Assembly (NCBI GenBank): GCA_021796275.1
Contig: JAJYOI010000006.1
Location: 1 to 61,697 of the forward strand
Origin: Bacteroidota bacterium
GTDB taxonomy: Bacteria; Bacteroidota; Ignavibacteria; UBA10030; UBA8401
Direction of reading: 5' to 3'
Length of the DNA stretch: 61,697 nucleotides
Numbering within the stretch: position 1 is the first letter of the stretch; every line of letters starts with the position of its first letter. This document shows, one piece after another, positions 5,436 to 18,849 of the stretch. The notes under the pieces are model-generated. The model searched no databases, was not told the origin of the DNA, and saw nothing but the letters and a program-made list of their open reading frames with translations. The position numbers and the translations under genes are program-made.

Positions 5436-7349
5436 ATGGAAAGATGGATTTCTTTAAATGAATTTGCAGCACTGACGAACCGGCAATATATCGCGGCGCG
5501 CGTATATGTCAATCGAAACACCTTCCTCGAAACACGCTACGAAATAATTCCAACCGGCAGACAGCTTCAAATTTCTCTCCCCTCTCTGCTCTCCCACTCC
5601 ATCTTGACTCCCGCGCAAGCAGAAAAATTTCTCTTGACACAAAAACTTTCGCTTGCCAATTCCGACGGTAACCGGCTTCTCGCGGCGGCGATTGTGGCGA
5701 AGAAGTTTGAAAATCTCACCGAGAGCGAGCTTGAGCTGCTCAACGCGCTTGGCAACTGGCGCGCGAAAAAAAAGGAAGAGATCATCGAGATTTTTGTTTC
5801 ATCGTTCGGGAGATCGCGCGCATGGTTTTATCGGAATCATGCGACAGATAAACGAAAAGAGAAAGACGGAATTCTTGAATCACTGACGACCGAGCAGCTT
5901 GAATCGGCGAAAAAATATCTATTACAATCCCGATCCATTCAATCGTTCGCGGTGAAGTGTATCAATGACGAAAATCTCCCGGACGTTTCGACAAGCACAT
6001 GGCGCCGGCTGCACGCCGATCTGTCGGTTGAAATGTGCAACGAGCTCGACCTGATGAAAGAGGGCCGGCTGCAAATGCGCAACCGGCTCGCGCCGATTCT
6101 GCGCGACAAAACAACACTGAAAGTGATGGAAGCGGCAACGTCAGATTTCTGGCGGATAGACTTCGTCGTGAAATGGCTCGACGGTTCGCTCGCGCGGCCG
6201 AGCGCATGCTTCATTGAAGATTGGCGGACAGGGAAAATTGTCGGACGCGCGATCACTCGCTTTCCGAATTCGCTCGGCGTGAAGACGGCTCTCTTCGACT
6301 GCTTTTTGCATCATGGAATTATGAAGCAGTTCAACATTGATAATGGAAAAGAATTTGTAGCGCACAGAGTTGTCGGGACGAAGATCGAACAGCAGCTTGT
6401 GAAAATTGATTACAGCGATGTCGAAGATAAGCTGAAGGTTTTCGAAACGCGCGGGTTCCTTCCTTCACTCATTGTGAAAAGTCATCGCGCGTTGAAGCGC
6501 AACCCGATCTCGAAAACAATTGAACGCCGATTCGGGCGCGGCGGCCCGACGGATTGGGCGAAAGAATTCTCCAATTGGTCCGGAGCGAATTACTGGCAGA
6601 AGCGCGAAGTCGTTGCGCGCGCAGAACGGAAATTCCGCAAAGGCGAGCAAAAAGATTTTGTTGATGCGAACACCGGGGAGATCGTTCACTTCATGGAAAT
6701 TGATGAGCTGATTTCGGCGATAGATGAATTTGTGAACCGACACAATAACCGCCCGTCGTCTGGTTTCGGCATGGACGGAAAAACGCCGAATCAATTATGG
6801 GATGAGCTTGTGAAGCTCGATCCGCCGCGGCGCGCGCCGGTCGAAAAAATTGCTTTCAGCTTTTTGGAAGGCCCGGAGAAGCCGCGCCGCATTCGGATGA
6901 GCGGCTACATAGAATTGAAAAAACATTTCTTCTTCGCGTCCGACGTGACGCTGAGAATGCGCGGTCGTTGGGTGTTCCTGCGCTGGAATCCGATAGACGG
7001 TTTCTGGTGGCATCGCGGAGACGACATGCAGTTTGAGTTTCTGCCGAACAACATTTTTGTCTACGACGAGAATGGCGAGTATCTCACAACGGTAAAATTT
7101 GTTGACCGTCAGCATCCGCTTGAAGCCGGCGAAAACGTTTCTGCGCTCATGTCGCGCAAAATGAACTTGATAAAGGAAACTGAGGAAACGGTCAATCACC
7201 TGCTCACCGGGAAAGCGCCGGTCGTGGACGTGAAGACGGTGCCGGATGAAATCGTAGCGGCGGCGGCGAAAAAACGCGCAGAAAAAAAAGCGGACGATGA
7301 AGATGCGCACAGAAAAGAAATTGCAAAAAAATATCCAACAATCATTTAA
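5436..7349 (+). CDS. MuA-like DDE transposase
   Basis: The 637-residue enzyme cuts and joins the phage ends during integration and replicative transposition. An N-terminal DNA-binding region is followed by a retroviral-integrase fold core. The apparent triad is D242 (WRIDFV), D302 (FNIDNGKEF) and E363 (SKTIERRFG). A C-terminal beta-rich domain (about 480-560) precedes a basic, lysine- and alanine-rich tail that would contact MuB. Length is close to MuA (663). It should recognise the 18-bp repeats at both prophage ends. Confidence 0.93.
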   Translation: MERWISLNEFAALTNRQYIAARVYVNRNTFLETRYEIIPTGRQLQISLPSLLSHSILTPAQAEKFLLTQKLSLANSDGNRLLAAAIVAKKFENLTESELELLNALGNWRAKKKEEIIEIFVSSFGRSRAWFYRNHATDKRKEKDGILESLTTEQLESAKKYLLQSRSIQSFAVKCINDENLPDVSTSTWRRLHADLSVEMCNELDLMKEGRLQMRNRLAPILRDKTTLKVMEAATSDFWRIDFVVKWLDGSLARPSACFIEDWRTGKIVGRAITRFPNSLGVKTALFDCFLHHGIMKQFNIDNGKEFVAHRVVGTKIEQQLVKIDYSDVEDKLKVFETRGFLPSLIVKSHRALKRNPISKTIERRFGRGGPTDWAKEFSNWSGANYWQKREVVARAERKFRKGEQKDFVDANTGEIVHFMEIDELISAIDEFVNRHNNRPSSGFGMDGKTPNQLWDELVKLDPPRRAPVEKIAFSFLEGPEKPRRIRMSGYIELKKHFFFASDVTLRMRGRWVFLRWNPIDGFWWHRGDDMQFEFLPNNIFVYDENGEYLTTVKFVDRQHPLEAGENVSALMSRKMNLIKETEETVNHLLTGKAPVVDVKTVPDEIVAAAAKKRAEKKADDEDAHRKEIAKKYPTII

Positions 7350-7359
7350 CGGAGGTGTC

Positions 7360-7623
7360 ATGCAAACAACAGACCGGAGATTCGCGGCAGGCTACCGCAC
7401 AATCCGCGACGGTTACAATAGTTTAGCCAACACAGTCAGCGGCGCATCTGCCGCCGACTTTGGAATTCCGGCAAACGAAGCGAAGCATTTTGAATCCATC
7501 AAAAACAGATTGATGGTCGTTCACGAGCAGCTCCTCGTTATCACAGACAAAATGGTCGCGCTCGGAATGCTGCAGACAGAAGAAGAAGTAACTGCCGCGC
7601 TCGATGACGGCCGTGAAAACTGA
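7360..7623 (+). CDS. hypothetical early phage protein
   Basis: The start at 7360 is chosen because GGAGGT lies 4 bp upstream. The ORF-track start at 7297 lies inside the transposase gene. The product has 87 residues and is helical, with FESIKNRLMVVHEQLLVITDKM in the middle. No family is recognised. It is placed between the transposase and another early regulator. Confidence 0.7.
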   Translation: MQTTDRRFAAGYRTIRDGYNSLANTVSGASAADFGIPANEAKHFESIKNRLMVVHEQLLVITDKMVALGMLQTEEEVTAALDDGREN

Positions 7624-7638
7624 TTTTTTTTGACCGTT

Positions 7639-7661
7639 CGGATTGTTAAATCAACAATCCG
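7639..7661. repeat. 9-bp perfect hairpin in the early operon
   Basis: CGGATTGTT and AACAATCCG are complementary around a 5-base loop, in the 79-bp gap after the gene ending at 7623. No T-run follows, so it is more likely an mRNA-processing or attenuation element than a strong terminator. Confidence 0.5.
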
Positions 7662-7702
7662 CAAAACAACAACGAACTATTTAACAGAAAGGAAAGTGCA
7701 GT

Positions 7703-8185
7703 ATGTCACACAACAGTAATTCTTTTCGGAGTCCCGGAACGCGGATGGACGAGGAGTTGATCGGTACGCTCACATACGTTTTCATAACTCAGCGCAAACA
7801 CGACATTGGCTGGCTCGCCTCGAAGCTCAATATGGAATACGGCGATCTCCACGCTTTTATTTCCGGACGGCGCACAATGCCGGTAACGCTGCTCAAACGG
7901 ATCACGGAGTTGACTGGCGACAGAATCTTTTTTGACACCGTCTTCGCCGGGTCGGACATCGTGTGGAATTTCAAGAAACAATATCACGCGCACACGAACG
8001 ACGCCTCGCAGGAAGCGCTTGAAGCGGTCGGCGCTGTCGGTGAATTGTGCGTTGAGATTAAAAATATCATGCACAACAAATTCCTGACCGAGGAAGAGCG
8101 CGCGAATCTGCGTTTGAAAATTTCTGTAGCGAAAACTGAGATCGAAGACCTGTTCGACGTGGTCAACGAAGGAAGGAAGGCATAA
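7703..8185 (+). CDS. phage regulatory protein with HTH-like N-terminus
   Basis: This 160-residue protein has a CII/XRE-like segment (IGWLASKLNMEYGDLHAFISGRRTMP, about residues 37-62). A helical C-terminal half ends in TEIEDLFDVVNEGRKA. It is preceded by GAAAGGAAAG and ends 1 bp before the MuB-like start. The arrangement suggests a DNA-binding regulator or a helper of transposition. Specific function is unknown. Confidence 0.65.
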   Translation: MSHNSNSFRSPGTRMDEELIGTLTYVFITQRKHDIGWLASKLNMEYGDLHAFISGRRTMPVTLLKRITELTGDRIFFDTVFAGSDIVWNFKKQYHAHTNDASQEALEAVGAVGELCVEIKNIMHNKFLTEEERANLRLKISVAKTEIEDLFDVVNEGRKA

Positions 8186-8186
8186 C

Positions 8187-9140
8187 ATGCAGCGCGAAAC
8201 AATTATTGATAAGGCGCTCGGCAAGGTCAGGGAACAGCGCGGCTGGCGAAAGCAAATTGCCCTGCGCGCCGCCGTTGAAGTTGCCGACGTGGACACGCTG
8301 ATGACCGGGCGCGATGACCGCATTGTTGAAGCGGCGCTTTCGCTTACCGGACTCGGCGGAAGCATCCGCGCCGTAGACACGAGCGTGAAACGCTTCATCG
8401 AAAAGATCGTTCGCGCTGCGGCGTGGGATAAAAGAATATACGCGGTGTTTGGTCCGACAGGCGCCGGAAAAACTTTCACTCTGAAGGCGATCATTCCGAC
8501 AATCGAAGAACCGGTCGCGCTCGTGCGGATCACGCAGCACAACAGGAACAGCATCGGCAGAATTACACAGGACATTCATCGAGCGCTGCACGTGCGCGTG
8601 AAGGGTTCGAATCCGACATCATCGTACATCGGGCAGAATTTTTTCGCGAAGCTGATGGACTTGGCTCAAACGCGGTGCGTCGTCATCATTGATGAAGCTC
8701 AGAAGCTCAGCGATAATTCGTTCGAACTTTTGCGCGACATTTATGACGAATCGCAGGCGTCGCTCGTGCTCATCGGCTCGACCGTGTTTGCCGAACGGCT
8801 TGCGAAAAAAAGAATTTCCGACGAAGTATTCGGGCAATTTCTGCGCCGCGTTGACGACCGGTACGAACTGCCGCACGCAACTCCCGGCGACGTAAAATTA
8901 TTCCTGAACGCGTACGGAATCGAAATCGATAAAACCGACACGCGTGCAATTGCCCGGAAGATCGGTAACTACGGCGACATTGATACACTTGCACGCGCAA
9001 TGCGCATTATTGCCGGAAGTGTTGAAGAAGGTGAATTGTCATGGAAAAAAGTCGGCAGCGGACAAATTATTGACGCTATCGAACGGATCACCATGCTGAT
9101 GACCGTTGAGGAAGAAGATGGAACCGAAGCTCAATCGTAA
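8187..9140 (+). CDS. MuB-like AAA+ transposition ATPase
   Basis: The 317-residue protein has an N-terminal HTH-like segment (about 20-52). An AAA+ core follows, with Walker A GPTGAGKT at 89-96 and Walker B VVIIDEA at 165-171. MuB binds target DNA as ATP filaments, delivers it to MuA and gives target immunity. The order transposase, two small genes, ATPase resembles Mu A-B. The overlap with the next gene indicates a shared transcript. Confidence 0.9.
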   Translation: MQRETIIDKALGKVREQRGWRKQIALRAAVEVADVDTLMTGRDDRIVEAALSLTGLGGSIRAVDTSVKRFIEKIVRAAAWDKRIYAVFGPTGAGKTFTLKAIIPTIEEPVALVRITQHNRNSIGRITQDIHRALHVRVKGSNPTSSYIGQNFFAKLMDLAQTRCVVIIDEAQKLSDNSFELLRDIYDESQASLVLIGSTVFAERLAKKRISDEVFGQFLRRVDDRYELPHATPGDVKLFLNAYGIEIDKTDTRAIARKIGNYGDIDTLARAMRIIAGSVEEGELSWKKVGSGQIIDAIERITMLMTVEEEDGTEAQS

Positions 9141-9561
9141 ACTGCACGCTTTAGCGAACGGCATTGCGCCGGGCCAAGCACACGACTTTTTGAAACGCGA
9201 AGCCGAGGAACAATTCAAGGTCGGCTACGGAGAATTGACCGAAGCGCAGGCACGACAGCTTGCGCTTCGGCTTCGCGCAGTGAAAGAGCGCGTCCGGACA
9301 GAAATATTCCGCGCGCTCAACGGAGCGGAAGGTTCGCCAATTTCGGAAGAGCATCTCTCACAAATACGGCAGTACCGGAAGCTGCTCGGCTGGAGCGATG
9401 GATATTTCACAGAAATGGTCCGCGCGCGGTACGGTGAGCAATCGCTCGAAACTCTGCCGCGCTGGAAAGGTGTGCGGTTGGTGCTGTACTTGCAAAAACG
9501 ATGGCATCAGAAAAAGTTAAAAGTGAAAAATGAAAAAATAAAGACTGGAGATGCGGCATAA
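9118..9561 (+). CDS. Mu gp16/GemA-like regulatory protein
   Basis: The start at 9118 is preferred because GAGGAAG precedes it. The product has 147 residues. The C-terminal part (ISEEHLSQIRQYRKLLGWSD, then LYLQKRWH) resembles the gp16/GemA family seen in the early region of Mu-like phages. The last codons lie in an AT-rich stretch (AAAAGTTAAAAGTGAAAAAT) that looks like an inserted host repeat and gives a lysine-rich tail. The family call is moderate. Confidence 0.6.
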   Translation: MEPKLNRKLHALANGIAPGQAHDFLKREAEEQFKVGYGELTEAQARQLALRLRAVKERVRTEIFRALNGAEGSPISEEHLSQIRQYRKLLGWSDGYFTEMVRARYGEQSLETLPRWKGVRLVLYLQKRWHQKKLKVKNEKIKTGDAA

Positions 9562-9764
9562 TGGGCACTGAGGCGAAGTGGAAAATAGAAATTTGCGACA
9601 GATGTGCAGGGTGTGGCTGGAAACGGATAGAGAAAAGAATTTCCGGTTCGGAATGGGAGTGGATAAGAGTGAAGTGTTCTGAATGCCGTGGCACGGGGCG
9701 ATTAACTGTTTCGACAACGATTAAAAAATCAGCCTTTTCCGACGAGGAAAACAATGAAGCATAA
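9561..9764 (+). CDS. small zinc-ribbon protein (DnaJ-type CxxCxG pairs)
   Basis: The 67-residue protein contains CDRCAGCGW and CSECRGTGR, two CxxCxGxG-like knuckles that probably bind one zinc. The start overlaps the previous stop as TAATG. Such small zinc proteins are frequent in phage early operons. No specific function can be assigned. Confidence 0.7.
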   Translation: MGTEAKWKIEICDRCAGCGWKRIEKRISGSEWEWIRVKCSECRGTGRLTVSTTIKKSAFSDEENNEA

Positions 9765-10020
9765 CCGGGTGATCACGATTTCAGAACATTCAATAGACCG
9801 TTTTATTGAGCGCTTCAATTTCGCAGGGAAAAATTCTTCGGTGCTTTCGCATGTGCGGATCGCGGCAGAAAAAGCGATTGTGGAAATCTGGCACAACGCC
9901 AGCTACATCAGTGACAATGCTGACGGCGTGTTGTTCCGCAGCCGGGATTACCAAGTCGACTTCATCGTGAAAGACCGGCAGATCACAACACTGTTCCCGA
10001 CAAAAATAAAACAAGGATAA
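9754..10020 (+). CDS. hypothetical protein, possibly DUF4258-like
   Basis: The 88-residue product begins with ITISEHSIDRFIERF and ends with a beta strand pair (VDFIVKDRQITTLFPT). This recalls small DUF4258/RelE-like folds, but the match is weak. It overlaps the previous gene by 11 bp, which supports translation from the same mRNA. Confidence 0.55.
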   Translation: MKHNRVITISEHSIDRFIERFNFAGKNSSVLSHVRIAAEKAIVEIWHNASYISDNADGVLFRSRDYQVDFIVKDRQITTLFPTKIKQG

Positions 10021-10024
10021 CCGT

Positions 10025-10189
10025 ATGCTCATCGTCGTTCAGGCGGTAGGTTTTTTGATGCTCCAATTCAAGGTGATAGAATCATCGCACAGAAATTTCA
10101 CGGTCGGCGATTCGGTTGATTCAGGTAAAATACTTCTCGCCGTCCGTCAGGGTTACGCCGTAACAATTCTTCCACCGGAGAAAATTTAA
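10025..10189 (+). CDS. 54-residue hypothetical protein (below ORF-track limit)
   Basis: ATG at 10025 opens a 54-codon frame ending in TAA at 10187-10189. That stop overlaps the next ATG (TAATG), as for several neighbours. The start lies 4 bp after the preceding stop. The product is hydrophobic at the N-terminus (MLIVVQAVGFLML) and then beta-rich. Tight packing on both sides is the main evidence that it is real. Confidence 0.6.
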   Translation: MLIVVQAVGFLMLQFKVIESSHRNFTVGDSVDSGKILLAVRQGYAVTILPPEKI

Positions 10190-10482
10190 TGACACACAAC
10201 GAACGCATTTATCATCAGGCGAGATTTTCGACAAATATTCAAACATGTAAGGGCTGCGGCGCGCGCATACTTTGGATGAAAACCCTGCGCGGGAAAAATA
10301 TTCCCGTTGATCCGCAGCTCATTCACGTCCCGCGCGAGCGCGAAGGAACGCTGCTCGACAAAGACGGCATAATTCACCGCTCTCTCGCCGCCGGACAAAC
10401 GGGTTGGACTCCGCATTGGGTTACGTGCCCGAAGGCGGAACAATTTCATCAATCAACAAATCCGAAAGGAGTTTTGCAATGA
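10189..10482 (+). CDS. phage zinc-ribbon protein
   Basis: The 97-residue protein has CKGCGARILWM near residue 20, then RGKNIPVDP, then GWTPHWVTCPKAEQF. This order is common in small phage proteins with one zinc site (CxxC plus a distal H/C). It sits in the early operon with 4-bp overlaps on both sides. Its biochemical role is unknown. Confidence 0.7.
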   Translation: MTHNERIYHQARFSTNIQTCKGCGARILWMKTLRGKNIPVDPQLIHVPREREGTLLDKDGIIHRSLAAGQTGWTPHWVTCPKAEQFHQSTNPKGVLQ

Positions 10483-10838
10483 CAGAAGAAATTCTTCGAC
10501 AGGTTATGCTCGCCGTTGGTTCGGCCGCGCTTTTTATTTTCATCACGGGCTGGATTATCAAGGTCCTCCGCGCCGCGCATGATTTTGACGAGTCGATGAG
10601 AATGGCAATGCTGCGCGACGAAGCACGGAAGAAAAATCCGAATTGCTCACTCATCGCCGCACTTTCATTGCTGCGGAGAGATAAGTACGACGAGATTATG
10701 AACACGGCAACCAGTGCGGAGAAAGTTTCCGACCTTATGCGCGATTACTTAATTCTTAACGATGAAATCAACAGGCTCGCTGAATTGATGTCAGACCAAA
10801 CAAGCTCGTTCCGCAAAACCGGAACGTTCGCCGTTTAA
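10479..10838 (+). CDS. phage protein with one membrane helix
   Basis: The start at 10479 follows AAAGGAG and overlaps the previous stop (ATGA). The ORF-track start at 10404 is inside the upstream gene. The 119-residue product has a transmembrane segment at about residues 8-28 (VMLAVGSAALFIFITGWIIK). A charged helical domain follows. No family is recognised. Confidence 0.65.
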   Translation: MTEEILRQVMLAVGSAALFIFITGWIIKVLRAAHDFDESMRMAMLRDEARKKNPNCSLIAALSLLRRDKYDEIMNTATSAEKVSDLMRDYLILNDEINRLAELMSDQTSSFRKTGTFAV

Positions 10839-10854
10839 GAAAGGAATTTGGAAC

Positions 10855-11130
10855 ATGCAGACACATGAGCTTCAACCTATTTTCGAGAAGAAACAAAGCG
10901 AGCTGAGCGAATTACAGAAAGCAATCGCTTTGATAGAAAAACAATGCTCCGCGCTTAAATCCACGGTGCATGAATACAACGAGTTGATGCAGGAACGAAA
11001 GAAGCTGCGGAAAAGCGCGGCACAGATGCAGAAAGAAATGAAGATTGTCGCCTCGTTCTTCGAAGGCACGACAATTTTTGACGAACGATTTCCACTATTT
11101 TCTCAACCACAAAATCAGGAGCCAGCATGA
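10855..11130 (+). CDS. coiled-coil early phage protein
   Basis: The 91-residue product is mostly one predicted coiled coil (about residues 8-65, rich in E, K, L and Q heptads). It overlaps the Gam gene start by 4 bp (ATGA). By position it may act with Gam, but no motif shows this. Confidence 0.6.
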   Translation: MQTHELQPIFEKKQSELSELQKAIALIEKQCSALKSTVHEYNELMQERKKLRKSAAQMQKEMKIVASFFEGTTIFDERFPLFSQPQNQEPA

Positions 11131-11648
11131 AAACAAACACGGTCGGCAGCTTCAGCGATGCCGATGAGCTTCTACTCGAGTACGCGGGCAACGAAGCCAC
11201 GCGCGCGAAGGAAGAGGCAAAGATGAACGAACGCATCCAAAGCATTCGCGATGATTTCAACGCGCGGACGCGCGACATGCTTCAGCGGAACGCAGAGATC
11301 GAGAAAGCGATCGAAGCATTCTGCATTCAGCATAAGGATGAGTTTGAAAAAACAAAGTCGCGCGAATTGCTGCACGGACAGATCGGCTTTCGCACTAATC
11401 CGCCGAAGGTCTCTCTGCTCAACCGGAAGTATAATCTGAAAACAGTACTCGAGCTGACGCGCCGGATTTTCAAAGGCGGCTACCTTCGAAAGACTGAAGA
11501 AATCGACAAGGAAAAAATCCTTGCTGATTACAGCGCAAAAAGTCTCACCGATGCAGAGCTTGCGGCGGTTGGTTTGCGCGTTGACCAGCAGGAACAAGCC
11601 GGAATCCTTTCGATCAAGTGGGAATCCATCGAGCAGAGCGCGGCATGA
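11127..11648 (+). CDS. Mu Gam-like host nuclease inhibitor
   Basis: The 173-residue protein has an N-terminal helical coiled coil and the Gam hallmark LHGQIGFRTNPPKVSLLN in the centre. Mu Gam is a Ku-like dimer that binds double-strand ends and shields them from host exonucleases such as RecBCD. The length matches Mu Gam (174). Both flanking genes overlap by 4 bp, consistent with one early operon. Confidence 0.87.
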   Translation: MKTNTVGSFSDADELLLEYAGNEATRAKEEAKMNERIQSIRDDFNARTRDMLQRNAEIEKAIEAFCIQHKDEFEKTKSRELLHGQIGFRTNPPKVSLLNRKYNLKTVLELTRRIFKGGYLRKTEEIDKEKILADYSAKSLTDAELAAVGLRVDQQEQAGILSIKWESIEQSAA

Positions 11649-11995
11649 CAAGCGAACCGACATTGTTCGACGCAAAAGAAAATCGCAATGCGGTTTTCGC
11701 GCAGATTCAAGATCGCCTTTCGGCGTCACGTATGCGCGTCTTCAATGCACTGTTCGAACTCGGCCGCGCAACCGACCAGCAGATCAAAGAAAAATTGGGC
11801 GTCGAGATCAACATTGTTACCGGCCGTCGCCGAGAATTGTGCGAGATGAAACTTGTGAAGAATGTCGGCGAAGAAATCGGACCATACAGGCAGCCGCGCA
11901 CCGTTTGGGAAATTGATTACACGCAACTCACTTATTTTCTCAACCAAATTAAAAGAGGCACACATGACAAAAAACTCAGCGTCAGCGAAGGCTGA
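11645..11995 (+). CDS. winged-helix DNA-binding protein
   Basis: From the ATG at 11645 (overlapping the Gam stop) the product has 116 residues. The N-terminal half resembles a winged helix (MRVFNALFELGRATDQQIKEKLG, then INIVTGRRRELCEMKLVK). A beta wing (YRQPRTVWEI) follows. It is probably a phage transcription regulator. The target is unknown. Confidence 0.65.
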   Translation: MTSEPTLFDAKENRNAVFAQIQDRLSASRMRVFNALFELGRATDQQIKEKLGVEINIVTGRRRELCEMKLVKNVGEEIGPYRQPRTVWEIDYTQLTYFLNQIKRGTHDKKLSVSEG

Positions 11996-12305
11996 CAAAG
12001 CTGCTCAGGCGTTAGTGGATGCAGGACAAGCTCTTGCAGCAGATCAAGGCGCGACACCGCAAACGTCACCGGATAAACCGGAAGCGCCGCAGGCGCCGGC
12101 ACCGGAAAAACCAAAGAATCCGTCTTTCGATTTTAAGTTTGATTTCGTGAAAGATGACAAGGTCGTGCGGACGGAAAATATTTCCGTCCAAGCCGAGACA
12201 CGCGAATATGCGTGGCGCGCCGCAGTGATCATCGCGAAAGAAAACGCAAAGCCCGGCGAGCGTGCACAATACGTTCATCTGCCGAAAAAAGAAGTGAAGA
12301 AATAA
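11964..12305 (+). CDS. proline/alanine-rich phage protein
   Basis: The start at 11964 follows AAAAGAGG. The ORF-track start at 11862 overlaps the upstream gene and is not preferred. The 113-residue product has a low-complexity A/P/Q/K-rich first half. A compact second half (FDFKFDFVKDDKVVRTENIS) follows. Nothing in it identifies a function. Confidence 0.6.
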   Translation: MTKNSASAKADKAAQALVDAGQALAADQGATPQTSPDKPEAPQAPAPEKPKNPSFDFKFDFVKDDKVVRTENISVQAETREYAWRAAVIIAKENAKPGERAQYVHLPKKEVKK

Positions 12306-12315
12306 TGCGTTGGAT

Positions 12316-12391
12316 GCTGCAAAGTTTTCTATGGGAAAACACCAGCGCGATGAGCATGGAGATGGCAGGTTCGAATCCTGCCTTAGCCTCA
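12316..12391 (+). other. structured non-coding segment with a tRNA-like T-arm
   Basis: The gap 12306-12423 holds two hairpins. The first is GTTTTC-TATGG-GAAAAC enclosed by GCTG/CAGC (12316-12346). The second is GGCAGG-TTCGAAT-CCTGCC (12364-12382), which is a perfect tRNA T-stem-loop, followed by TTAGCCTCA. No matching 5' acceptor strand or anticodon arm is present, so it is not a normal tRNA. Confidence 0.45.
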
Positions 12392-12423
12392 ATTCTGAAC
12401 TTTACATTTTGACTTTTGAATTA

Positions 12424-12645
12424 ATGATCTGTCCGTTTTGCAAATACGATTATCGAGATGTCGAAGAAGACGAGATGCCGGGCGGTGTTGTCCGCGTGGA
12501 CGATCATTTTTATAAGACGTACCGCCGCCTCGGACGCCGCTGTCCTCATTGCGGAAAAGTCGCGGAGTTCATCGAGCGTCCGACCGGCAGCTTGTATTTT
12601 AAACGGTTTGAACAGAAATCACAAAAGAGGAAAAGAAGCAAATGA
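12424..12645 (+). CDS. small zinc-finger phage protein
   Basis: From ATG at 12424 the product has 73 residues with CPFCKYDY and CPHCGKV, a two-CxxC zinc ribbon. A basic tail (KSQKRKRSK) follows. The upstream part of the ORF-track entry (from 12310) crosses the tRNA-like hairpins and is unlikely to be coding. There is no good ribosome site; the start is preceded by an AT-rich repeat-like stretch. Confidence 0.6.
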   Translation: MICPFCKYDYRDVEEDEMPGGVVRVDDHFYKTYRRLGRRCPHCGKVAEFIERPTGSLYFKRFEQKSQKRKRSK

Positions 12646-13040
12646 AAATCGGAAATTTTTGTTCACGGTCGCTTCATCAAATTGCACTGCTGAGATTCCT
12701 TTCGCAACGCCGTCGCGCAACGCGGAAAGAATTGTTTGAAGCATTTCCGGCGCGGTTCAATAATTCTCTGCGGTGCAACTTCTCCGCCGTTGTGCGCGCA
12801 CTTGCCGGCAGGGGAATGATTGAAATCCAAACGAGCAACGGCGGCGAACAAGGCGCGCGGATTGAAGGCGTTGCGCTTTCAGAATTCGGCTGGATGGAGC
12901 TCAACGCCGAACCGCCGAAAGCAGAATCAGTCGCGCTGAATAACGTGCCCTGCGGGCGCATTATGAACGGCTGCTATCATGCACACCAATGTCATCTTGC
13001 GCCGCGCTGTGCGGCAGCGCAGAGGATGAAAAATGAATGA
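12642..13040 (+). CDS. winged-helix-like protein with Cys/His-rich tail
   Basis: The 132-residue product overlaps the preceding gene by 4 bp. An HTH-like region (ATRKELFEAFPARFNNSLRC, then VVRALAGRGMIEIQTSN) is followed by a cysteine- and histidine-rich end (CGRIMNGCYHAHQCHLAPRC). The tail may bind zinc. It directly precedes the methyltransferase, whose first ATG lies inside its last codons. Confidence 0.6.
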   Translation: MKIGNFCSRSLHQIALLRFLSQRRRATRKELFEAFPARFNNSLRCNFSAVVRALAGRGMIEIQTSNGGEQGARIEGVALSEFGWMELNAEPPKAESVALNNVPCGRIMNGCYHAHQCHLAPRCAAAQRMKNE

Positions 13041-13801
13041 ATTGTCACTGTTCACGGGGGGGGATGGGTTTACTTGGAACAAAATTACTCGGTTGGTCCA
13101 CCGTAGGTTACGTGGAAAAAGATGATTATTGCCAAAGAATTATTGCTCAAAGGATCAAAGACGGAGTTATCAATAATGCACCAATTTTCAGCGATGTCAA
13201 AACATTCATTAGTGACGGGTACGCCGGAAGCTATAAAAACATGGTTGATGTCATCACGGCAGGATTCCCATGCCAGCCATTCAGCCGCGCTTATCCCGGA
13301 AGACAAAATGAGCACGATGAACGGAACCTGTGGCCGCAAACAATCGAGACTATCAGAATCGTCAAACCGCGTTTTTTCGTTCTCGAAAATGTTGAAGCTC
13401 TCACGACGACAACATATTTCAGGAACACGATCCTCACAAGCATCGTGGAAAGCGGGTATGATTGTCAATGGGATTGTTTACCTGCGCATCTCTTCGGCGC
13501 CGCGAGCATACGCAGCAGATTGTTTCTTGTGGCCCACGCCGACGGCGAGCGATGCAATGCGTTTAAATTTCACGGTGCAGCAGTTAGCCACAGCACGATC
13601 GAAAAAACTGCAAGCGAAGAAGCTTTTTCGTTTTACTTCGGGAAATTTGAACGAGGTAATGGCGGAAGAGTTTTCAGAAAGCCTGACGCCGGAATTCTCG
13701 GAATGGTTAATGATGATCCCGATAGGTTGGACAGGCTTAAAGCCGTTGGAAACGGACAGGTTCCGGCTGTGGTTAAATTTGTTTGTGAAAGAATAAAATG
13801 A
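13033..13801 (+). CDS. phage C5 DNA cytosine methyltransferase, frame-interrupted at a G8 tract
   Basis: The frame starting at 13037 shows the C5-methyltransferase motifs in order: PCQPFS (IV), LENVEAL (VI), SIRSRLFLV (VIII) and AVGNGQVP (X). Motif I is missing from that frame. The ATG at 13033 instead reads MNELSLFTG, the expected motif I start, but in another frame. The two frames meet in GGGGGGGG (13056-13063). With 7 or 10 Gs they would join. As written the enzyme is probably off or poorly active unless a shift occurs. The gene would methylate phage or host DNA, perhaps for anti-restriction. Confidence 0.8.
13056..13063. repeat. G8 homopolymer in methyltransferase motif I
   Basis: Eight consecutive Gs lie at codons 8-11 of the methyltransferase, where the coding frame changes. 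Such tracts are typical slipped-strand phase-variation sites, and also typical sequencing errors. Confidence 0.6.
13122..13796 (+). CDS. second open frame overprinted on the methyltransferase
   Basis: This 224-codon frame, one base out of phase with the methyltransferase body, is open for almost the whole gene. It reads like a recurrent phage protein: RQDSHASHSA early, WKAGMIVNGIVYL, then LWPTPTASDAM, then SLTPEFSEWLMMIPIGWT near the end. I recall this motif order from phage proteins often annotated as DNA methylases, but could not search. It may be a true overlapping gene, a frameshift product, or a family created by misread methyltransferase genes. Confidence 0.45.
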   Translation: MIIAKELLLKGSKTELSIMHQFSAMSKHSLVTGTPEAIKTWLMSSRQDSHASHSAALIPEDKMSTMNGTCGRKQSRLSESSNRVFSFSKMLKLSRRQHISGTRSSQASWKAGMIVNGIVYLRISSAPRAYAADCFLWPTPTASDAMRLNFTVQQLATARSKKLQAKKLFRFTSGNLNEVMAEEFSESLTPEFSEWLMMIPIGWTGLKPLETDRFRLWLNLFVKE

Positions 13802-14520
13802 ACCCGCGCTCACAGATAGAACAGATCAAAGCCGAGCTTGCAGCATCGCTCGCAAATAATTCTCCGCGTTTCAATCGCGCAGTTTCGCGCGAGCTGATGC
13901 GTCTCTTCGCTCAAACGAAGAACGACAATCTCTCGCTCGACGATTTCATCGCTATCATCGAAAATAAATTTCAGATTCCGGCGGCGGCAAAAGGAGCGAT
14001 CATTCTCGATCTGCGTCAGGCGCAAAAACAGATCGGCAAAGTGTGGCAGACGTATTTCAGCGAGCAGTTGCCGGTGAACAGCAATCAGTTGTCGGAGCGT
14101 GACATCACCAATCTGCTTGCGCTTTATCAGGTTGACTTTTCCCAAATCCGTACGGCAGCAAAAGATATTATCATTGACGAGCTTCGGCGTACCGCGCGCG
14201 CCGGAAGCGGTATTGAAGTCCTCCGTTCGCGTCTGCTCAGGCGCGGGCTTGCCGCCGGTGAAGCGCGCACGCTGGCAAATACCGGACTGGCACAGTTTGA
14301 CAACGCAAGCATGTTCGAGATGGCGCAGCAAGCGGGCGTGAAAAAGTTTATATACGACGGAGTTCTGCATCCGAACTCGCGTCTTTTCTGCCGCGAACAT
14401 CTCGGCAAAAAATATACAATAACTCAAATTACAAAAATGAATAACGGACAGGGCTTGCCGGTGCTGACAAGCTGCGGCGGCTACAACTGCACGCACTGGT
14501 GGACGCCAGTGGTCGAATGA
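13798..14520 (+). CDS. phage minor head protein, Mu gpF/SPP1 gp7-like
   Basis: The 240-residue protein ends with a conserved block: SRLFCREHLGKKYT, then MNNGQGLPV, then SCGGYNCTHWW. This is the hallmark of the phage head morphogenesis (Mu F / SPP1 gp7) family, which binds the portal and helps capsid assembly. The first 150 residues are helical. It overlaps the methyltransferase stop by 4 bp. It is unusual that it sits at the end of the rightward early operon while the portal and terminase genes run leftward. Confidence 0.8.
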   Translation: MNPRSQIEQIKAELAASLANNSPRFNRAVSRELMRLFAQTKNDNLSLDDFIAIIENKFQIPAAAKGAIILDLRQAQKQIGKVWQTYFSEQLPVNSNQLSERDITNLLALYQVDFSQIRTAAKDIIIDELRRTARAGSGIEVLRSRLLRRGLAAGEARTLANTGLAQFDNASMFEMAQQAGVKKFIYDGVLHPNSRLFCREHLGKKYTITQITKMNNGQGLPVLTSCGGYNCTHWWTPVVE

Positions 14521-14560
14521 ACTGCAACAAAAACAATTTTCAAACACAGAAGGAAACAAC

Positions 14561-14857
14561 ATGGAAGCATTAAGAAAACTCACGATTGCATATTTGGAAA
14601 AAGAAAATTCGCTCTCGCAGAATGAAACCGCGCGGCGTGCGGGAATTCCGACATCCACATTCTCAAAATTTTTGGCGGAAAAGTTTGCGAAAATAACATG
14701 CGAGCAGGAATCCGCGCTGCTTGCAATCATCAAACCGGAATATTCCGACGTGGATGTGATTGCCGGGAGAATCAAGCAGATCGTGTTGCGGAAATATCCG
14801 CGCCTCATTGCCGAGAGCGCAATTATCAGGCTGGCAGAAAATCTGCAAAAACCGTGA
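14561..14857 (+). CDS. XRE-like HTH protein, last gene of the rightward early operon
   Basis: The 98-residue product has a helix-turn-helix at about residues 18-40 (LSQNETARRAGIPTSTFSKFL). A helical tail (ARKYP-like, then SAIIRLAENLQKP) follows. AGGAAACAAC lies upstream of the start. In Mu this position is occupied by the activators Mor and C. This protein is not a clear Mor homologue, but a role in late-gene control is plausible. Confidence 0.65.
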   Translation: MEALRKLTIAYLEKENSLSQNETARRAGIPTSTFSKFLAEKFAKITCEQESALLAIIKPEYSDVDVIAGRIKQIVLRKYPRLIAESAIIRLAENLQKP

Positions 14858-14922
14858 AAACCGAATTTGCCCGCCGTGAGCGAAAAAGGCTCAGGATTCC
14901 CCGATATTCGGGCGGCACAGTG

Positions 14923-14950
14923 GAAACGATTAGAAACGATTTGAAACGGT
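14923..14950. repeat. three 10-bp phased GAAACGAT iterons
   Basis: GAAACGAT at 14923, GAAACGAT at 14933 and GAAACGGT at 14943 are spaced exactly 10 bp apart in the non-coding gap after the HTH gene. One helical turn per unit suggests a protein-binding site, possibly for the adjacent HTH protein. Confidence 0.45.
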
Positions 14951-14988
14951 AAAGAACCTGCGATAGAGATGTTCCAACTTCACCTCAG

Positions 14989-15012
14989 GCGGCTTAAAAA
15001 GCCGCTTTTTTT
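14989..15012 (+). terminator. intrinsic terminator of the rightward early operon
   Basis: GCGGCTT (14989-14995) and AAGCCGC (14999-15005) form a 7-bp stem with a 3-base loop, followed by seven Ts. It lies between the convergent early operon and the leftward packaging operon. Confidence 0.85.
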
Positions 15013-15048
15013 ATTCTACGCAATTCCCCGTCTGTGCGAAGTCCGCAG

Positions 15049-15624
15049 TTACCCGATCATCGCTTTAATTTTTTTCATCACTTCTTCGCCGACAAGCTTC
15101 TTTAGCCGCACCTGTTCGTCGGCCGTGAAGCCGATGAACTTGTGAAGGCGCCGGCTTTTGCCCGCGCCTGAAACCTGATGGTATGTGGCGAGCTTCTTCA
15201 TGTCGGCGTCTTTTTCGGAGATAACTGCGCCTGTGTCGTCGGCGCTGATAATTCCCAAGTTGCGAAGCATTCTGCCCGTCCATGTGAGCGACACGTGGGA
15301 CGAATCTTTTCCGGCAAGCTCGCGGAATCTTTTGTAGCCGCCGGCAACGACAATCCATGTTGACTTATTTTTCGACGTGAAAATTTCCGAGCCGGATGCG
15401 AGCAGCGCCTTTGTCGTGTTGCGTGTCAATCCGCCGAGGGGCCGCGCGAACGGCTTCGCCGAATATTGTTCCGCGCCCGCCGATGAACCTTCTAAAAATT
15501 TTCCCGAAGTCGTTCTCTCGCGGATGATTGCCACGCCGGCGTTCGCCGCGCGCATCACCATCATGCGGTCTACGACGCTGTTCTGTAGTGTGGAAATTTT
15601 TTGTCGAAGTTCGTCGGGCGTCAT
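15049..15624 (-). CDS. phage virion morphogenesis protein, Mu gpG-like
   Basis: The 191-residue protein resembles the virion morphogenesis/tail completion family (Mu gpG). Features are an N-terminal helix, TRNTTKALLASG, a WTGRMLRNLG block, and the YHQVSGAGKSRRLHKFIGFT motif near the end. In Mu, gpG affects head-tail joining or tail length. It is the last gene of the leftward packaging operon, 6 bp after the DUF6527-like gene. Confidence 0.78.
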   Translation of the reverse strand: MTPDELRQKISTLQNSVVDRMMVMRAANAGVAIIRERTTSGKFLEGSSAGAEQYSAKPFARPLGGLTRNTTKALLASGSEIFTSKNKSTWIVVAGGYKRFRELAGKDSSHVSLTWTGRMLRNLGIISADDTGAVISEKDADMKKLATYHQVSGAGKSRRLHKFIGFTADEQVRLKKLVGEEVMKKIKAMIG

Positions 15625-15630
15625 TTTAAT

Positions 15631-15927
15631 TTATGAATTCCAATCCTCTGATATTTCGGGAAGATCAATAGTCTGTCCGCGAAGTTCATGCGCACAGTCG
15701 GATAGGAATTGAATCTTTCCGTTAGCTACAAAGCTATGGCAAACTATTTGTCTTTTTGGATCTCCAACTTCAATCCAAGATTTCATGCTTGGACTAAACG
15801 TAGGCATTTCTAAATTTCCATTGAACGACCAGCGCGAATCAAATAAATGATAATAGCCGCAACCCGGACATTTGATTGCCCAAGAATGATGAGCGCCATT
15901 TGAATCTTTAATTTCTTTTACCTTCAT
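15631..15927 (-). CDS. DUF6527-like phage protein
   Basis: The 98-residue protein has CPGCGYYHLF, FNGNLEMPTFSPS, a CHSFV segment and FLSDCAHELRGQTIDLP. This is the pattern of DUF6527 proteins, which are frequent among phage structural genes. The cysteines and histidines suggest a metal site. It overlaps the portal stop by 4 bp. Its role is not known. Confidence 0.75.
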   Translation of the reverse strand: MKVKEIKDSNGAHHSWAIKCPGCGYYHLFDSRWSFNGNLEMPTFSPSMKSWIEVGDPKRQIVCHSFVANGKIQFLSDCAHELRGQTIDLPEISEDWNS

Positions 15928-17129
15928 ACCGTCACATCTCCTTCTTGCGGCGGAGTGAAATTTATTTTTCTGTAAAATTCGTCGCGCTTGAATTTGAAGT
16001 TCGCATCAGCAGATTTCGTTTCCGCAAAAATCCGTGCGTTCGCTTCGGTGTCTTCCGTTTCATCGGTGTGGAAACGGAGAACGGGAAACGCATTTTTCGG
16101 CTCGCCGTAATTTTTTTGGAAATCCTGAACGCAATATTGATCAGAGATAATTTCCTGAAGCGCAAGCAAGTCCGACCACATAATGTCTGAACGAACTAAA
16201 TTATGAACCGATGCCGCCGCCTTGCTTCCTTTGTTCTGCAAGTCGGTCGTCAGCGTTTGTCCGAGAATGGAAATTGCCTGCTCGCTTTTAATTGTTTCCA
16301 CCAATTCCTTGTGCGCGCTCATACTTCCGCTGCGCTGAGCTTCGAGGAGCTGCAGTTTCACGTCGTCCGAGAAAGCGGCGCGCGCATCGGTGCCCAATTG
16401 TTCCAGTCCGGCGATCACAGCATTCACTTCCGTGTCCTGCGATCCCTTCCTATAGCTCGCCCAAATCATCGGATCGGCAAATTTTTCATTTGCCTTCGCC
16501 CAGTTCCAGTAATCGTAATATTTGATCCAGCTCAGGATCATGTTTGTTCGCATGAGCGAGCCGATATAATTTTTTTCAATTCCGTCAAGCGGCGAATAGC
16601 GTACGACGATGTGTGTCTCCGGGTCAATCGGCGACTGCGTCAGCAATCCGTTGTTTGTGTTCGTGTTCAGATAGATCAGTCCGTCATCGTTGAGCACATC
16701 AAAGTCCAGTTCGGTCAGATCGTATTTTTGCTTTTTTACAACAGCCGTTCCGTTCGCGGTGTTTCCCCACACAAGGCGGACCGCACTCGCGCCGAACAAT
16801 CTTCCGATCATCACAGTGCGAAGCAGCGCGCGCATTTTCGATGTGCGAAAACGGTTATTCATTTCTACGAGCTGCTGCTGTTCCGCCGTATCCGGCGCGT
16901 AGCCGTCAGGCATAGTGATTGACGACTCAAAGCCGAGCACGGCATCGAGCCGCGTGCCGACAAGTCCGAGTAAGTTCAGGTCAACCTGCATCAGGCGCTG
17001 CAATGTAGACATCAGCGGCCGCGGATCGCGGTACTGCTGCGTTGTATTGTTTGCGCGCTGGATGTACCGCTGCATCTGCACGATCGTCGGCAGCAACGAA
17101 TTATAAAGATCACCGTTTTTGTATGCCAT
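15924..17129 (-). CDS. portal protein, Mu gp29-like (DUF935)
   Basis: The 401-residue protein forms the dodecameric ring at the head vertex. It shows gp29-type features: an N-terminal helical region, the IYLNTNTNNGLLT and HIVVRYSPLDG strands, an aromatic helix (WIKYYDYWNWAKANEKFADP), and the conserved SEQAISILGQTLTTD followed by GSKAAASVHNLVRSD. Mu gp29 is longer (about 510), so the C-terminal part is reduced here. It follows the terminase by 25 bp. Confidence 0.82.
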   Translation of the reverse strand: MAYKNGDLYNSLLPTIVQMQRYIQRANNTTQQYRDPRPLMSTLQRLMQVDLNLLGLVGTRLDAVLGFESSITMPDGYAPDTAEQQQLVEMNNRFRTSKMRALLRTVMIGRLFGASAVRLVWGNTANGTAVVKKQKYDLTELDFDVLNDDGLIYLNTNTNNGLLTQSPIDPETHIVVRYSPLDGIEKNYIGSLMRTNMILSWIKYYDYWNWAKANEKFADPMIWASYRKGSQDTEVNAVIAGLEQLGTDARAAFSDDVKLQLLEAQRSGSMSAHKELVETIKSEQAISILGQTLTTDLQNKGSKAAASVHNLVRSDIMWSDLLALQEIISDQYCVQDFQKNYGEPKNAFPVLRFHTDETEDTEANARIFAETKSADANFKFKRDEFYRKINFTPPQEGDVTV

Positions 17130-17154
17130 TGTTTTGCCTTTTAGATTTTAGCAA

Positions 17155-18849
17155 TTAAAGTGCGCGCGCAATTCGTTTTTTTGTGACGCTGTGAAATTCC
17201 GGCTTCGTCCCGGCAAATAAATTCAAATGATATTCCTGCATCAGCTCGAGCGCACTGATCAACGTGTCGGGCGCATCATCCTTTTTCGCCGCTTTCTTCG
17301 TCTTAAATTTGAAGAGCTGCTCGGTGTACCGTTTGCCCTCTTCGGTCCGGCGGAATCCCGGCGGGAAAAGAAATCTTCCTGCTTTCCATTCGTTTTCTGT
17401 CACCGATGCAAGCTCATCAACTTTATATTTTTTAAATTCGATGAACGGCAGCGGCATTTTGTGGAGCTGCGAAAAGTTCAGCAGGAAATTAAACCACGTG
17501 GATTCCTGCGCGACGTTCCCGTCGAATGCCTGAGCGATCACATTGACGCCGCGTATTTTTTCTGCAGCGCGCAGAACGAGAAAATCGGAAATCAAATCAT
17601 TCGCGCTTGAATAACTTTTGCAACGCGCAGAAGTGATGAAATATTTTTGATGCGTCGCGGAAAATGCAAGACATGTAACTGCCGTTGTATCTCCCTTCCC
17701 TTTCAGCGAGCAGTTCGGATCGGTGTAGATGACGGCGCGAAGATCGTCCGGCAGATACTGCCATTCGCGGTAGAATGTGTCGGGAAAAATATCACCGGAT
17801 TTTTCTTTTGGCGAACCCTGAAAATTTCCTGCCCAATCATAATCATCCATCGGCTTGCACATTTGTTTCATTTCACTTTCCGTTTTCGCCGGGAAGCGTT
17901 CGTGCCAGATGGAAGCAGTTTGTGTGTGGGAACGACGAACTTTTTTTATTCCGTTCTTTCGCGTTTCGTCCCATGCCGGAAATTTGTGGAGAATGAATTC
18001 TTCAGAAAGAATTCCGCGCTCCTGCTCGAGGAATAAATAATTCATCGCGCAGTCAACGGAAAAATTATTTCCTTCCCAGAATAAAACTCCCTTGCTCGAA
18101 AGCGACGTGCGCATTTCATTGATGCGCGTGATCCGTTTTTCCACCGCCTCACTCGTCAGCGACGAGGAGTTGCTTTCAAGGTCGGTGAGATAGATGAGAT
18201 CGGGACGCAGAAAGAATGCGCGCTGCCTTCCGCGCGATGAGCGGCCTTCCGACAACGCGCCGATGTATGCGCCCGCCGGATTTGTGATTGACCGCGCAAA
18301 AAGATTTTCGGACGAAGCTTCATGCCACTGCAATTGATAATCATGTTTCAGCCGCTCATTCGATTCAAGGACATAGAGCATGTCAACAATTGCGGATTGC
18401 GCCGGCGCGAGCGTTTCGGAGCCGATGAGCTGGTAGTGGCGCTTGCCGTGGAGAAAATTGTAGAGAAATTTTTTCTTTGCGAACGCAGTTTTTGCGCTGT
18501 CGCGCGGACCGTGCAGCACGTGCGCTTTTTTATCGTGCAAATCCATCAGGCGGATAATTTCCCTGTGGAACCAACCCGGCGCCGAATAGTCGTCGTATAG
18601 ATCAGGCGGGAAATATGTTGCATCCCAGAAAAAGAAATCTTCTCCGGCTTTTTTCAGTCGCGTTTTAATCGCGTCCGGTTTTCGTTCGCTTTCCGAGAAC
18701 GGAACGATGACGCGCATCTGCGCTTCAATTTCAGCGCGGAGCGCGCGCTGCTGCTCTTCGCCGGCACGCTCAAGATCGGTTTGCCGCTGGCGTTCGAGAT
18801 GTTCAAGGAGAATTTCTGATGTCGAAAATAATTTCATTTTTTTTATCAA
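17155..18849 (-). CDS. terminase large subunit, Mu gp28-like
   Basis: The 564-residue packaging motor has a Walker A variant GPRDSAKT at 114-121. A Walker B-like LIYLTDLES follows, and then a C-terminal RNase H-fold nuclease beginning at VIYTDPNCSLKGKGDTTAV. Replicating transposable phages package by the headful from integrated copies, so this nuclease cuts host flanking DNA. Its start overlaps the upstream gene by 4 bp. Confidence 0.87.
   Translation of the reverse strand: MIKKMKLFSTSEILLEHLERQRQTDLERAGEEQQRALRAEIEAQMRVIVPFSESERKPDAIKTRLKKAGEDFFFWDATYFPPDLYDDYSAPGWFHREIIRLMDLHDKKAHVLHGPRDSAKTAFAKKKFLYNFLHGKRHYQLIGSETLAPAQSAIVDMLYVLESNERLKHDYQLQWHEASSENLFARSITNPAGAYIGALSEGRSSRGRQRAFFLRPDLIYLTDLESNSSSLTSEAVEKRITRINEMRTSLSSKGVLFWEGNNFSVDCAMNYLFLEQERGILSEEFILHKFPAWDETRKNGIKKVRRSHTQTASIWHERFPAKTESEMKQMCKPMDDYDWAGNFQGSPKEKSGDIFPDTFYREWQYLPDDLRAVIYTDPNCSLKGKGDTTAVTCLAFSATHQKYFITSARCKSYSSANDLISDFLVLRAAEKIRGVNVIAQAFDGNVAQESTWFNFLLNFSQLHKMPLPFIEFKKYKVDELASVTENEWKAGRFLFPPGFRRTEEGKRYTEQLFKFKTKKAAKKDDAPDTLISALELMQEYHLNLFAGTKPEFHSVTKKRIARAL

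Follow-up and report, generated by a model that had tools for sequence, protein, structure and literature searches.

Does an open reading frame of 224 codons that lies wholly inside the gene for a C5 DNA methyltransferase (MTase) encode a protein of its own and, if so, what is the role of that protein? The question arose in a stretch of 61,697 nucleotides from a Bacteroidota bacterium (contig JAJYOI010000006.1; hereafter, the window), where a Mu-like prophage at positions 5436-18849 encodes a transposase, a transposition protein, a Mu Gam-like protein and, on the minus strand, a portal protein and a terminase. The nested frame (frame B, product beta; 13122-13796, plus strand, ATG start) is fully contained in the open reading frame of the MTase (frame A, product alpha; 13037-13801) and is in +1 relative to it. 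An earlier, sequence-only reading had considered a frame of this length unlikely to occur by chance and had suggested that the two frames form a conserved overlapping gene pair, or are joined by a frameshift, or that one of the two families is a database artefact. Frame B turned out to be real, but its length alone is weak evidence because there are other long unassigned open reading frames in the window, for example, an antisense one of 332 amino acids at 13810-14808.

Selection on the nested frame

As the null for the stop codon counts, synonymous codons were permuted such that protein A and its codon set were kept. None of 20,000 such shuffles of the window copy left 13122-13796 open (mean of 5.6 stops), so that the frame indeed exceeds chance expectation, and the phenomenon is larger in scope than the sequence-only reading assumed. 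Against a profile built from 97 other loci, with the window excluded, frame B of the window scores 141.8 bits (E=1.4e-42), compared to 100.3 bits for the best of 500 shuffles.

The two frames occur together irrespective of which of them is used for selection: among 160 loci picked by frame A alone, frame B is present at +1 in 80/80 viral and 80/80 genomic ones and, reciprocally, frame A is found at the corresponding offset in 79 of the 80 loci picked by frame B. Across the whole gene, the 80 viral loci selected by frame A contain 112 stops in the +1 frame versus 410 expected, without a deficit in the +2 frame (1117 observed versus 936 expected); in 78 of these loci, the B-HMM score is above those of all 200 synonymous shuffles. 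For 186 non-redundant loci, the +1 depletion starts at approximately A position 60 and stops at motif X, with ~6 stops observed versus ~607 expected at A positions 61-228, and again the +2 frame shows no depletion. In 29 ordinary C5 MTase genes from the same phylum, +1 stops are not depleted (699 observed versus 667 expected), similarity to frame B is absent in the 16 ordinary C5 MTases that were scored, and in the phylogenetic tree, a single, fully supported branch separates the overlap loci from the ordinary enzymes. Frame B is confirmed as a real, selected coding frame that is anciently conserved.

Substitution rates were estimated from close pairs of loci (<16% divergence), an earlier set of pairs being too diverged to read. 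Within the overlap, 41-44% of the changes fall on position 1 of the frame A codons, 13-18% on position 2 and 41-43% on position 3; in the N-terminal part outside the overlap, where the counts are small, 74-85% of the changes are at position 3. The rate at A position 3, which is position 2 of frame B, is 0.31 in the loop that follows motif IV and falls to 0.08-0.14 across motifs V-VIII. At A positions 161-220, the recognition region, the fastest site is position 1 of A, that is, position 3 of B (0.22-0.34), the pattern predicted for a stretch in which constraint on the protein acts through B; these data show that the recognition region is protein-constrained in frame B and not in A. Although not conserved, frame A is kept open through this region (0 stops versus 324 expected with B held fixed), which is consistent with a need to reach motif X. 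Free synonymous variation in the MTase frame had been named as the observation that would speak against an overlapping pair; when examined, the variation in frame A failed to refute the pair, which is strongly supported by the stop depletion, the selection on the start codon of frame B (see below), the two-frame substitution pattern and the conservation from Bacteroidota to Actinomycetota and an archaeal plasmid.

Start codons and the state of the window copy

Most of the loci have a double start: in 102 of the 186, an xTGAATGAG-like sequence is present, with frame B open from an ATG located 4 nt after the start of A, and in 63 of these 102, a recognisable Shine-Dalgarno sequence lies upstream. 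Of the 105 asparagine codons at position 2 of frame A, 103 are AAT, compared to 510 of 1212 (42%) elsewhere (p ~1e-33). The AAT at this position creates the ATG of frame B; the start codon of frame B is shown to be under selection. In E. coli, ambiguous AUGUG/GUGUG start sites, with two start codons in different frames and one ribosome-binding site, have been characterized experimentally (PMC9841429). The double starts described here are similar to these sites in that one ribosome-binding site would serve two frames, but differ in the 4-nt spacing of the start codons (xTGAATG) and in yielding two long, conserved products.

In the window copy, frame A does not truly begin at the ATG at 13037 that opens the mechanically called reading frame. 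The conserved start is the ATG at 13033, which reads MNELSLFTGG (the beginning of motif I), and together with the second ATG at 13037 it forms the double-start pattern ATGAATGAA. The conserved 5' end of frame A spans 13033-13063 on the plus strand, as judged from the sequence and from relatives (MRELSLFSGAGGGLLG), and terminates in a run of eight Gs (13056-13063), the sole run of at least seven Gs or Cs in the window, at which frame A shifts from reading frame 1 to reading frame 2. Motif I (F.G.GG) does not share a reading frame with the remainder of frame A; thus, alpha may be switched off by the length of a variable tract, may have decayed or may appear disrupted through misassembly. A relative, L174, has nine Gs at the same position and motif I in frame. 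In the branch that includes the window copy, the N-terminal stretch of B is not open, and B begins within A, in the window probably at the ATG at 13122, with a weak upstream GGA as the only candidate for ribosome binding. Matches in the close relatives of the source genome are no more than partial and resemble ordinary MTases; the MTase gene of the window therefore probably arrived with the phage.

Products of the two frames

Beyond the G run, frame A (13064-13801, plus strand) encodes the catalytic domain of a C5 MTase, with part of motif I, the motifs through VIII, and motif X. It matches PF00145 (E=1e-27) and phrog_363 (3.7e-44), the latter through to the C-terminus, and carries the PC of motif IV with the catalytic cysteine (GFPCQPFS, 13262-13285), the ENV of motif VI (13385-13393; invariant in alignments of relatives), the R.R of motif VIII (RSRLFLVA, 13511-13534) and the GN of motif X (RLKAVGNGQVPAV, 13733-13771), all on the plus strand. 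By sequence, frame A aligns to residues 15-183 of HhaI, with a second, sub-threshold match to residues 297-314 (motif X). The AF2 model of alpha (pTM 0.73) includes a catalytic core with pLDDT >90 and a helix at motif X, and Foldseek searches started from this model retrieve DNMT1, HaeIII and HhaI. From motif VIII to the short stretch preceding motif X, the alignment of frame A lacks any conserved residue, and residues 174-228 of the model, where the small domain is expected, mostly have pLDDT <50. The alignment, the AF2 model and the substitution constraint all indicate that the frame A chain has neither a target recognition domain (TRD) of its own nor motif IX.

Frame B has no match in Pfam or NCBIfam but does match phrog_1008 (named DNA methyltransferase) and, at its C-terminus, short families. 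Single-sequence searches with it recovered almost nothing, so alignments were required. In phage records, it is found in Stenotrophomonas phage SOVA965, over 97% of the length with 32% identity. The only match of B to the PDB by sequence, a 19-bit repeat match, was rejected as spurious. The order of conserved elements in B is D/S...A.TS, YDP..SWKT.Q.SL, TWP.WG.MR.G, WPTP modules and LNP.WVEWLMGWPIGWT. All motifs that had been listed in the sequence-only reading (RQDSHASHSA, GMIVNGIVYL, WPTPTASDA and LTPEFSEWLMMIPIGWT) are present in frame B, and the bases for MTase motifs VIII and X are, as stated there, shared between the frames. The bases that encode motif IV of alpha fall within RQDSHASHSA of beta, WPTPTASDA (13530-13556, plus strand) begins the TRD-like region, with the WPTP conserved in alignments and with constraint in frame B, and motif X of alpha is overprinted by TGLKPLETDRFRLW. 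Between the latter two, LTPEFSEWLMMIPIGWT (13683-13733, plus strand) is the best window for a motif IX PSSM within B of the window, with a weak score. More generally, the end of B resembles motif IX ((R)KLTPRECARLQGFPD), with a weak PSSM match, and in hhalign comparisons of B with ordinary MTases, the motif IX columns are paired with motif IX, at a non-significant score. AF2 gave a poor model of B by itself (pLDDT 61.7, pTM 0.24), and Foldseek detected no PDB match for it, so that we infer, rather than observe, the fold of the small domain of C5 MTases for beta.

Several loci depart from the common organization. In L097, L100, L108, L148 and L216, WPTP-type modules are repeated within the recognition region of frame B, which, by analogy with multispecific Bacillus phage MTases, suggests multi-specific or exchangeable recognition units. 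No stop separates frame B of L169 (551 aa) from a downstream DNA-methyltransferase-like reading frame with a TSPPYW motif, into which it continues. In L058, a single frame has a B-like start (MSWLFSQ), followed by A and then by a B-like end without motif X, which may be a natural fusion or a product of assembly indels.

In addition to the commoner type 1 loci, where alpha itself has motif X, we identified a rarer type 2 (L094, L095, L108, L112, L168, L216, L236, L246 and L250), in which A terminates downstream of motif VIII, and the motif IX-like stretch and motif X follow one another in B; for example, B of L094, L112, L168 and L236 contains LNPDWVEWLMGWPIGW...RLKAIGNGQVP.

A putative two-subunit methyltransferase

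We consider it likely that the locus encodes a two-polypeptide C5 MTase within one stretch of DNA, with A as the catalytic and B as the target-recognition subunit; judging from the sequences, frame B is very probably a separate DNA-recognition partner of the frame A enzyme. Alpha would provide the large domain (SAM binding, the motif IV cysteine, and motifs VI, VIII and X), with an unstructured linker in place of the small domain. Beta, translated independently at +1 and, in most relatives, presumably from the ATG 4 nt after the alpha start via a shared ribosome-binding site, would have a conserved N-terminal part that overlaps motifs IV-VIII of alpha, followed by a variable WPTP-type recognition region and the motif IX-like stretch, which together would make up the small domain. 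Beta is predicted to bind alpha and to supply target recognition, and the assembled pair could function as an orphan phage methyltransferase that shields the phage DNA from restriction; no restriction partner was seen in the neighbourhoods viewed.

A comparable gene arrangement exists in EcoHK31I, in which the small-subunit gene is nested in the large-subunit gene in another frame. As described in PMC3404938, M.EcoHK31I (YGGCCR; Lee, Kam and Shaw 1995) carries motifs I-VIII and X on its large chain and motif IX on its small chain. This is the division seen in the window, where alpha has motifs I-VIII and X, and beta has the (statistically weak) motif IX-like stretch. The large subunit is reported to hold the predicted TRD of M.EcoHK31I (PMC3404938); in the loci studied here, by contrast, it is frame B that is constrained across the TRD-like region. 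Further differences are the double start and the occurrence in phages, prophages and phage-like plasmids. The likeness described concerns the division of motifs, and we claim no membership in an EcoHK31I family; when plasmids and E. coli genomes were searched, the copies recovered were of the phage type, and none was identifiable as EcoHK31I.

In M.AquI (CYCGRG), another split C5 MTase, motifs I-VIII are in the first polypeptide and motifs IX-X in the second (PMC3404938). The type-2 loci split the enzyme in the same manner, and the window copy, with motif X in A, does not, but, unlike in M.AquI, the second reading frame here reaches back through the first one at +1 for >100 codons. The single-chain enzymes M.HhaI, M.HaeIII and Dcm, to which frame A is clearly homologous in the large domain, hold the TRD and motifs IX and X in one frame, without +1 conservation. 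A parallel for a hidden gene within a phage methylase gene is the ShiLan-domain case, an out-of-frame HNH endonuclease gene (PMC11855218). That gene is a mobile insertion coding for an endonuclease, whereas in the present loci dual coding is a property of the methylase sequence. We found no earlier report, in the open-access papers searched, of a nested frame in phage MTases, and the scale of the phenomenon, the double start and the evidence that places the recognition region in the hidden frame appear to be new.

An improbable alternative is that B, although a real overprinted gene, is an unrelated phage accessory protein rather than an MTase subunit. Such an interpretation would fit the lack of Pfam, NCBIfam and fold matches and the statistical weakness of the motif IX homology, but it does not account for the observations that the protein constraint on B coincides exactly with the place of the recognition domain missing from alpha, that B of the type-2 loci has the very motif X that is missing from alpha, that A and B stay together in 160/160 loci selected by A and 79/80 selected by B, and that M.EcoHK31I and M.AquI, as described in PMC3404938, divide the motifs likewise. 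The programmed +1 ribosomal frameshift that had been proposed to join the frames, fusing A to B into one long methyltransferase, is very improbable. It draws on the type-2 loci, where A ends soon after motif VIII, and the remainder of the enzyme is in B; however, B is conserved and open for some 100 codons upstream of the type-2 junction (>100 upstream of any useful one) and has its own start codon under selection, the ends of A vary, with no obvious common slip site on inspection, and alpha of the commoner type 1 is kept open to reach a motif X of its own. The notion that B is a shadow, read out of frame and owing its apparent conservation entirely to that of protein A, is hardly credible: the resemblance is partly passive, given that the B profile still assigns ~50 bits to synonymous shuffles and 38 bits to an ordinary Listeria MTase that lacks stop depletion, but the stop depletion, which ordinary MTases lack, the start-codon bias, the B-HMM scores above those of the shuffles and the fastest rate at B position 3 in the recognition region all contradict it.

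Returning to the two-subunit enzyme, the pair is kept from Bacteroidota to Actinomycetota, across many bacterial phyla and on one archaeal plasmid, and is found in phages, prophages and phage-like plasmids; the phage hosts include Mycobacterium, Lactobacillus, Salmonella, Pseudomonas and Stenotrophomonas. To our knowledge, long same-strand coding in two frames across nearly an entire enzyme domain is rare and mostly limited to a few viruses; here it recurs across many bacterial phyla and an archaeal plasmid. It is more likely than not that these loci represent a very large, previously unannotated class in phages and mobile elements, in which the same bases, read in two frames, specify the catalytic and the recognition subunits of C5 MTases, which are co-translated from a double start, with WPTP modules of the hidden subunit varying the specificity, and that M.EcoHK31I is one characterised member of this class.

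The suspicion that one of the families is a database artefact is refuted by the signal in the DNA, yet it was half right with respect to annotation: the records list one frame only, sometimes A and sometimes B, labelled as methyltransferase or hypothetical. Because gene callers annotate a single frame, half of each such enzyme is absent from the databases, and assays of orphan MTases from the annotated reading frame alone, with the partner lacking or broken, could falsely read as inactive. The analysis places the recognition domain of such phage MTases in an unannotated protein, which would make specificity prediction and experiments directly possible. The product annotated as 'DNA-cytosine methyltransferase' in the SOVA965 record corresponds to frame B, and in the record of the related phage S72, frame A is annotated, as hypothetical. 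In an E. coli PCP07014 prophage (L281, CDS 1502-2263), the gene is a RefSeq pseudogene, with stops in A and B a few bases apart. On the P. aeruginosa plasmid NZ_CP124656.1 (L289), frame B is annotated (WP_232060884.1, hypothetical protein), and frame A is not; this protein starts with MSYHSS at the double start.
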